Position numbers and translations under genes: made by a program. A stretch of 64,000 bases of DNA from Geobacteraceae bacterium (lineage in GTDB: Bacteria > Desulfobacterota > Desulfuromonadia > Desulfuromonadales > BM103). Under the pieces are notes generated by a model. It was not told the origin of the DNA, searched no databases, and was given only the letters and a program-made list of their open reading frames with translations. Positions 15,669 to 17,415 of this stretch are shown here, piece after piece. The stretch lies in NCBI GenBank assembly GCA_024641085.1, contig JAHEDT010000012.1, forward strand, positions 1 through 64,000, given 5' to 3'. The number at the start of each line of letters is the position of its first letter. The stretch's first letter is position 1.

Positions 15669-15836
15669 ATGCAAAAGATCCCAACCAGGAAGATGGCAAA
15701 GCCACAACTCTCCCAAGCGGTTCCAAACTTCACGAGACCGGTCTGGGGAGATCAACCGATGTCTTGCGCAGAATGCCGCTACAACGACCAGGATATCGAC
15801 ACCTTCCCCTGCGCAAAATGCCATACGCGTCATTGA
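15669..15836 (+). CDS. Small 55-residue protein with CXXC and CXXCH motifs
   Basis: A basic N-terminal part is followed by two cysteine pairs, CAEC (residues 33-36) and CAKCH (48-52). AGGAG lies six bases before the ATG at 15669, an excellent ribosome binding site. There is no signal peptide or membrane segment, so the CXXCH is unlikely to bind c-type haem, which requires export; a four-cysteine zinc ribbon is the better reading. I do not recognise a named family. It stands between livF and the large structured repeat region. Confidence 0.55.
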   Translation: MQKIPTRKMAKPQLSQAVPNFTRPVWGDQPMSCAECRYNDQDIDTFPCAKCHTRH

Positions 15837-15965
15837 TCTGCAGTTAAGTGAGCAGGAAGAGAAAGCCCATTGCCGCCATCAGGCAAAGGGGTGGTTATTT
15901 TATGCCAGAGGACCTGGATGAAGTTCCCCGTCCTTGACGCCACACGCCACACACCTCGCGAGGTA

Positions 15966-16543
15966 AAAACCGGCGGGTCCCGTCCCGCCGGACGCCATAC
16001 TTTTGCCCGGCAGCAAAAGTATGCAAAAGTGCCGTCACCTCGCGGTGGGCATGTCTTGCGCGATCATTCTACGGATCAATCAACAACTCAGCTAATAACC
16101 GCATCCCTGCCCTTGGCAGCACTACGGGGCCCTATTTTACCGGGCCACCGGGGTCTCCGAATGTAATGGCGCCAGTGTAGTCAGCTTTTCAGCTGCTATC
16201 CAAGGACGCAAATTGAGAAACCTAAACCAGTCAGAATCGACTTTTTAATGAGGTTTTGACTTGTTTCACCTCGCACCTCGTTTTTTATAATTTCACACCC
16301 CTCGTCGCGGGTACTGCGTCTGGGCTTCTATTGAGCGACTCGCGGACCATCCGGGGGCCAAACAGAAGGGCCCCCGCCAGGGTCAACGAAGCGTAGACGG
16401 GAAGTTCTCGTGACGTAGTGGTGCTCGGTGCCAATTGATCGCGCGTAAGATATGCCAAGCGCAGCGCCAGGTCCTTTCTTTATGTGACTTTCTTTGGACC
16501 AGCAAAGAAAGTCACCCGGCTGCCGGCCGGGACCGGCGGTTTT
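15966..16543. repeat. Structured repeat, unit 1
   Basis: Begins with AAAACCGGCGGG and ends with CCGGCGGTTTT. Left-end hairpin: 10-bp stem 15996-16005 / 16014-16023. Right-end hairpin: 13-bp stem 16484-16496 / 16503-16515 with loop GACCAG. The first 215 bases or so match unit 2 nearly base for base, the middle differs, and the last 200 bases match again (GACTCGCGGACCATCCGGGG and beyond). An inner inverted pair GGGGGCC / AGGGCCCCC lies near 16350-16375. Confidence 0.8.
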
Positions 16544-16587
16544 GATTTAAATTTTACCTTCTCTCTCTTTGCGCCTAGTGTCTCACC

Positions 16588-17225
16588 ATGTTAAAACCGG
16601 CGGGTCGCGTCCCGCCGGACGCCATACTTTTGCCCGGCAGCAAAAGTATGCAAAAGTGCCATCACCTCGCGGGGGGCATGTCTTGCGCGATCATTCTGCT
16701 GATCAATCAACAACTCAGCTAATAACCGCATCCCTGCCCTTGGCAGCACTACGGGGCCCTATTTTACCGGGCCACCGGGGTCTCCGAAGGGAATGCTGCA
16801 GGTCATATCAACGGGTCTGCTGCTATCAAAGTACACAGACCGAGAAACCCAAGCCATCTAAATTGACGCTTTTGATTGGGTTGTGACTGGTTTCACCTCG
16901 CGCCTCGAACCTTGCACCTCACACCTCTCGATACTAAATTTGTGAAATGTGTAGACCTGACCCCAATCATTCCACGGCGCTCGTCGCGCGTTCCGCGTCC
17001 CGGGTTCTATCGTGCGACTCGCGGACCATCCGGGGGCCAAACAGGAGGGCCCCCGCCAGGGTGGTCGAAGCGTAGACGGTAAGTTCTCATGATGTACCGA
17101 TGCACGGTGCCAATCGATTACGCGTAAGACATGCCAAGCGCCGCGTCAGGCCTTTTTCTGCGTACTCTTTTGGGCCAGCAAAAGAGTACGGCGTCCGGCG
17201 GGACGCGACCCGCCGGTTTTAACAT
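16588..17225. repeat. Structured repeat, unit 2, bounded by perfect 36-bp inverted repeats
   Basis: Bases 16588-16623 and 17190-17225 are exact reverse complements. Just inside lie a left hairpin (16623-16632 / 16641-16650) and a right hairpin (17161-17172 / 17179-17190, loop GGCCAG). Left and right hairpin stems, and those of unit 1, differ in sequence but remain fully paired. The outer inverted repeat is itself self-complementary (CCGGCGGG ... CCCGCCGG). A REP-like fragment (GTGAAATGTGTAGACCTGAC) is embedded at about 16940-16960. No transposase frame is inside. Confidence 0.82.
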
Positions 17226-17289: not shown

Positions 17290-17415
17290 CGCGGAGGGCC
17301 AACAATTGGGGACACTCTATTTTGAGTGTCCCCAGGCGAAGTTTCTGATTTTACTCACCTTGCACCTCGAACCTCTCGATACTGTTTTTGTGAAATGTGT
17401 TGACCTGACCATATT
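17290..17415. repeat. REP-like elements next to the structured repeat
   Basis: A perfect 10-bp hairpin (GGGGACACTC, 17308-17317, with 17324-17333) is followed by GTGAAATGTGTTGACCTGAC at about 17391-17410, a near copy of the piece at about 16943. The same GGGACACTCTATTTTGAGTG box recurs at 42.69 kb. Such boxes are typical of repeats mobilised by REP-associated tyrosine transposases; none is encoded here. Confidence 0.65.

Follow-up and report, generated by a model that had tools for sequence, protein, structure and literature searches.

Two tandem copies of a dispersed intergenic repeat with inverted end modules on a Geobacteraceae contig

What kind of element occupies positions 15963-17225 of this Geobacteraceae contig? 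The window, that is, the whole stretch of 64,000 nucleotides that was analysed, carries two similar units there, with no transposase in them and with end hairpins whose stems differ in sequence while pairing perfectly. The original prediction offered two readings of this arrangement, a non-autonomous mobile element or a large structured RNA. An Rfam scan of the window returned no match at E<=1, and sequence and topic searches of databases and literature found no name or description of the whole element, the repeat families of Geobacter and Pelobacter being compared by description only.

Two complete units with inverted end modules

The stretch 15963-17225 consists of two complete tandem units of 583 bp (unit 1, 15963..16545) and 638 bp (unit 2, 16588..17225) separated by a 42-bp spacer (16546..16587); units and structural features are given on the + strand. 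The two units are related by direct repeats of 275 nt (15955-16229/16582-16856, 88 % identity) and 191 nt (16287-16477/16966-17156, 83 %), and a perfect 36-bp inverted repeat (16588-16623 and 17190-17225) closes unit 2 at both ends. Each unit carries a module of about 95 bp at either end, the two being of one kind and in inverted orientation. We aligned 123 such end modules from the source genome and its relatives. From the outside inwards a module contains AAAA, hairpin A (CCGGCGGG-TCGCGT-CCCGCCGG), ACGCC, hairpin B, an A-rich linker, a short strand, hairpin C and GGCATG. Read outward, the same module presents the short strand, a pyrimidine-rich linker, hairpin B with a loop predicted to pair back to the short strand as an H-type pseudoknot, GGCGTC, the GC hairpin A and a T-tract. 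A second type of module, recognised by the hairpin GTGACTTTCTTTG/CAAAGAAAGTCAC, forms the right end of unit 1 and recurs in family f4, where full-length units have it at their far end.

The left end of unit 1, a type-1 module, carries hairpin A at 15970..15991 (CCGGCGGG/CCCGCCGG), which reads on the - strand as a terminator-like stem and then TTTTT, hairpin B at 15996..16023 (stem CATACTTTTG) and hairpin C at 16036..16047 (CACC-TCGC-GGTG, then the conserved GGCATG). The loop of this hairpin B (CGGCA, 16008-16012) can pair with TGCCG at 16030-16034 to form the pseudoknot. At the right, type-2 end of unit 1, hairpin B spans 16470..16515, with its stem at 16484-16515 and a predicted pseudoknot between GGTC (16470-16473) and GACC (16497-16500), and is followed by a hairpin A (16518..16541) that is terminator-like on the + strand. 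Unit 2 begins with hairpin A at 16597..16618 and hairpin B at 16623..16650, again with stem CATACTTTTG, whose loop GGCA (16636-16639) is complementary to TGCC (16657-16660). It ends with hairpin B at 17149..17190 (stem CGTACTCTTTTG/CAAAAGAGTACG at 17161-17190; pseudoknot GGCC 17149-17152 with GGCC 17173-17176) and a terminator-like outward end at 17195..17220, made of hairpin A (stem part 17195-17216) and TTTT. An interior hairpin of unit 2 (16753..16773, GGGGCCC/GGGCC) is well conserved among the copies of this genome. Most of what the original prediction had described at this level is borne out: the two copies with common ends, the inverted repeats that bound unit 2 and the perfectly paired end hairpins with differing stems (15996-16023, 16623-16650, 16484-16515 and 17161-17190). 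Its estimate of about 600 bases per unit gives way to the lengths above, and its hairpin inventory had missed the pseudoknot and the outermost GC hairpin A, in both its first and its second type.

Two smaller features lie in or beside the units. A short repeat, TACTAAATTTGTGAAATGTGTAGACCTGACCCC, is nested in unit 2 (16932..16964) and recurs outside it at 17380-17410; it ends in GTGTAGACCTGACC(CC) and occurs elsewhere in the genome too, for instance close to a Y1 transposase gene of contig C116. Adjoining the units, a small ORF (15669-15836) ends in two CxxC motifs (MSCAECRYNDQDIDTFPCAKCHTRH) and may encode a zinc-ribbon protein.

Covariation within the end modules

Across the aligned modules the stems vary and pairing is kept. 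The hairpin covariation score is 0.304 compared to 0.098 for shuffled alignments, a value that none of 500 shuffles reached, and it drops to 0.04-0.10 when the partner is slid as a control. Since related sequences may beat shuffles without any structure, this slid control and an independent test of the pseudoknot carry part of the weight. A single instance illustrates the pattern: the congener G001 also has a module upstream of cysK, and its hairpin B shows the compensated change from GTGAC.../...GTCAC to GTGCC.../...GGCAC.

The pseudoknot is predicted from the complementarity between the loop of hairpin B and the short strand beyond the linker, with pairs that include GGCA/TGCC, GGCC/GGCC, AAGCCAT/ATGGCTT, AAGCTG/CAGCTT and GGTC/GACC. 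In 53 distinct combinations, loop and short strand are complementary over a mean run of 3.8 nt, which falls to 2.96 nt with swapped partners (0/5000 swaps as high). The same test on independent taxa gives 4.0 versus 2.3 for seven sequences, from Caballeronia, Paraburkholderia, Variovorax, Ilyobacter and two IMG/VR contigs. The covariation in the end modules strongly supports selection for, or correction of, structure, and the covariation noted in the original prediction holds for the hairpins and extends to the pseudoknot.

Correction is the substance of one rival explanation, according to which the perfect stems reflect arm-to-arm copying in replication (template switching in quasipalindromes) and not selection for a folded molecule. 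Such a process would suit the cores of hairpin A, where we counted 2 non-Watson-Crick pairs in 1722 and no wobble intermediates, in a scoring that halts at mismatches and therefore leaves terminal mismatches uncounted. However, neither the separate covarying pairing between loop and linker side nor the conservation of the module plan across a bacterial order is readily explained by it, and we judge it quite improbable.

The pyrimidine linker may engage in a further interaction. Aligned in parallel register with the purine arm of hairpin B, as in a triple helix, it gives a better match than swapped linkers (0/2000; 3/2000 in the informative subset). Because a reversed linker performs almost as well overall (4.94 versus 4.81), a triple helix between linker and purine arm is put forward as a hypothesis only.

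The other reading in the original prediction, a large structured RNA, finds no support as a single transcript of 600 nt. The within-genome alignment is nearly without covariation (RNAalifold covariation term -1.06), the interiors of the units differ between genera, and the conserved structures are local and face outward at both ends.

Dispersal, placement and turnover

A search for further copies gave 86 BLAST matches to the query in the source genome, far above chance. Near-full copies number at least ten, mostly of 614-674 bp, and many more are cut at contig ends, so that in this draft genome the repeats probably break assemblies too. A covariance model detects the module, among the matches listed, in 71 of the roughly 75 genomes sampled from the order. 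The same model gave a weak match in 1 of about 70 genomes from other orders of the class and two weak cases in the phylum sample beyond the class. Exact pattern matches in named genomes belong to Desulfuromonadales or to Deltaproteobacteria MAGs. Relatives of the type-2 module reach further, to megaplasmids of Caballeronia, other Burkholderiales replicons and the Fusobacteriota replicon pILYOP01; one Caballeronia replicon holds seven inverted module pairs about 472 bp apart. BLAST of the whole unit against plasmids and phages returned no match.

The modules are intergenic. Among 109 scorable clusters, with ORFs called by length only, the flanking genes are codirectional in 56 cases, convergent in 38 and divergent in 15, and no cluster lies inside a long ORF. 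Tandem arrays occur in five families (f1, f4, f5, f8 and f13), with periods of about 507, 638 and 617 bp and of 308 bp. The number of units varies at one orthologous site, where G122 has one unit and G124, G125 and G126 have two; at another site the copy is absent from G126, with a diverged flank and no clean empty site. The common sequence of two units in G122 reaches hairpin A and their flanks are unrelated. As similarity stops sharply there, hairpin A marks the ends of the element.

These two G122 units also share an IS481-like insertion sequence (L247:1618-2829 and L248:2574-3785), which encodes a 403-aa rve protein and sits at one and the same place in both, in the same orientation. In this genome, inverted modules separated by 1.8 kb had been considered as an autonomous form of the repeat, a candidate we discarded since the gene between them is that insertion sequence. 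In G024, four single modules follow one another in direct orientation every 308 bp or so (L241:17686-18712); integron attC arrays are an unlikely explanation for such direct arrays, which are repeats of one sequence without cassettes. Other repeats were met along the way: a sequence of about 127 bp in G122 (L260:8633-8759) has very many matches of about 79-90 % identity across G123-G126 and represents another high-copy family, and in G099 (L221:8750-9420) a unit contains a sequence with the form of a CGTC-REP (CGTCATTCCCGCGCCGGCGGGAATCCA).

Folding, spreading and relation to known repeats

The outer ends of the units bear a terminator-like sequence signature. In 278 modules, the outward strand past hairpin A is rich in T (0.69, 0.52, 0.65 and 0.61 at positions 3-6 versus about 0.2 farther out), a consensus scan places terminator-like sites at both outer ends of unit 1, and the GC stem with its T-tract resembles an intrinsic terminator. 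At its outer end hairpin A has non-standard pairs, mostly at one position, that favour wobble on the outward strand (84 versus 13). In the hairpin cores mismatches are rare and have no G-U bias toward either strand, and strand polarity was abandoned as proof of RNA, the bias being mostly at one terminal position and absent from the cores. Wobble and T-tract data are compatible with either RNA or single-stranded DNA as the folding molecule.

These data also bear on the possibility that the end module is itself a functional RNA, a small RNA or an mRNA 3′-end structure with a linker perhaps triple-helical with hairpin B, and that the units are its dispersed genes. The covariation of the pseudoknot in several phyla, the fit of the linker to the purine arm and the terminal wobble of hairpin A agree with this view. 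So does the Rfam family RF02421 (Bp1_684), which matches the Caballeronia end at 49.5 bits (threshold 44) and is named after a predicted small RNA of B. pseudomallei with RT-PCR support (PMC3521395). That support means that RNA covering part of a relative has been detected, possibly as read-through. Against the view, the cores lack strand bias, the triplex orientation barely exceeds its reversed control, copy number and location vary, and RF02421 overlaps just half of hairpin B, with an RT-PCR signal that read-through could produce. On balance a functional end-module RNA appears unlikely.

We consider it probable that an element of this architecture and copy number, retained across the order, with covarying hairpins and pseudoknot, intergenic placement and tandem arrays, is a dispersed non-autonomous intergenic repeat, BIME- or MITE-like, with outward-facing hairpin-pseudoknot-terminator ends. 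The modules would fold when single-stranded, either as RNA at the 3′ ends of transcripts leaving the unit or as single-stranded DNA, and the folded modules are predicted to act as two-way terminators or 3′-end caps. With such ends, an intergenic copy could do no harm or be of use. Recognition of the folded ends by a putative trans-acting enzyme might give rise to new copies, and recombination may lengthen and shorten local arrays. The mobile element of the original prediction fits the dispersal, the sharp boundaries and the lack of a transposase, but neither a target-site duplication nor a mobilising enzyme was found. The G122 pair and seven copies in Caballeronia show no visible duplication of this kind, and a non-exhaustive genome scan for autonomous relatives with matching ends saw only the IS481-like insertions inside units. 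The lack of duplication, of a clean empty site and of a linked enzyme counts against the favoured explanation, as do the hairpin cores without G-U bias and near-universal vertical retention, which is unusual for a mobile repeat.

A more specific version of the mobile repeat names Y1 (RAYT/IS200-type) transposases as its movers, which would act on the hairpin ends in single-stranded form, following a proposal made for REP/BIME. The hairpin ends, the missing duplication, the CGTC beside hairpin A and the presence of Y1 transposases in 18 of 19 genomes searched are consistent with this. Yet Y1 genes are present, too, where there are few modules or none, and the published CGTC repeats are likewise without a linked transposase (PMC3733652). 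None of 30 Y1 loci is flanked by a module, a result that led us to reject Y1 as a linked partner and makes its role as mover doubtful.

More broadly, and tentatively, the non-autonomous repeat may belong to a widespread unnamed superfamily, spanning at least Desulfuromonadales-type bacteria, Burkholderiales and Fusobacteriota, of inverted hairpin-pseudoknot and possibly triple-helix modules, with an undescribed mechanism of spreading and with ends that would serve as two-way transcription-ending or RNA-protecting caps. Its ends offer a concrete structural signature for genome searches, for tests of termination and 3′-end protection and for the hunt for an end-recognising enzyme.

Several known systems resemble parts of this picture. 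The Bp1_684 family, now seen to cover a fragment of a relative, spans hairpin A and half of hairpin B of the Burkholderiales element; it includes neither the paired unit nor the pseudoknot and leaves the window unmatched. Genome papers on Geobacter and Pelobacter, probably related bacteria, list multicopy intergenic sequences, some in families with inverted-repeat ends (PMC2700814, PMC2996986, PMC3543383), which are similar by description only. REP and BIME sequences, including GTAG- and CGTC-tagged REPs (PMC3733652), are also intergenic, palindromic, often oppositely paired and mostly between codirectional or convergent genes. CGTC-tagged REPs share in addition an unpaired tag, matched here by the GGCGTC that immediately precedes hairpin A when type-1 modules are read outward, and, as in the present family, they have no linked transposase. 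However, their stem of 8-9 bp starts with A-T pairs and is followed by a CCA tail, with a loop of 4-5 nt (Di Nocera et al. 2013, PMC3733652), whereas hairpin A has the stem CCGGCGGG with no A-T start, a 6-nt loop and a T-tract. Like MITEs, the present units have terminal inverted repeats, no coding gene, many copies and sharp ends; they are larger, show no visible target duplication and have no parent insertion sequence that we could find. Unlike RAYT-associated REPs, the present copies flank none of the 30 Y1 loci, and they differ from REP/BIME in general by units of about 0.5-0.65 kb, three-hairpin ends with a pseudoknot and order-wide retention. Repeats of such kind are usually short, patchy and unexplained; in contrast, the present element is a half-kilobase unit with a covarying pseudoknot, kept across nearly a whole order and recurring in distant phyla.
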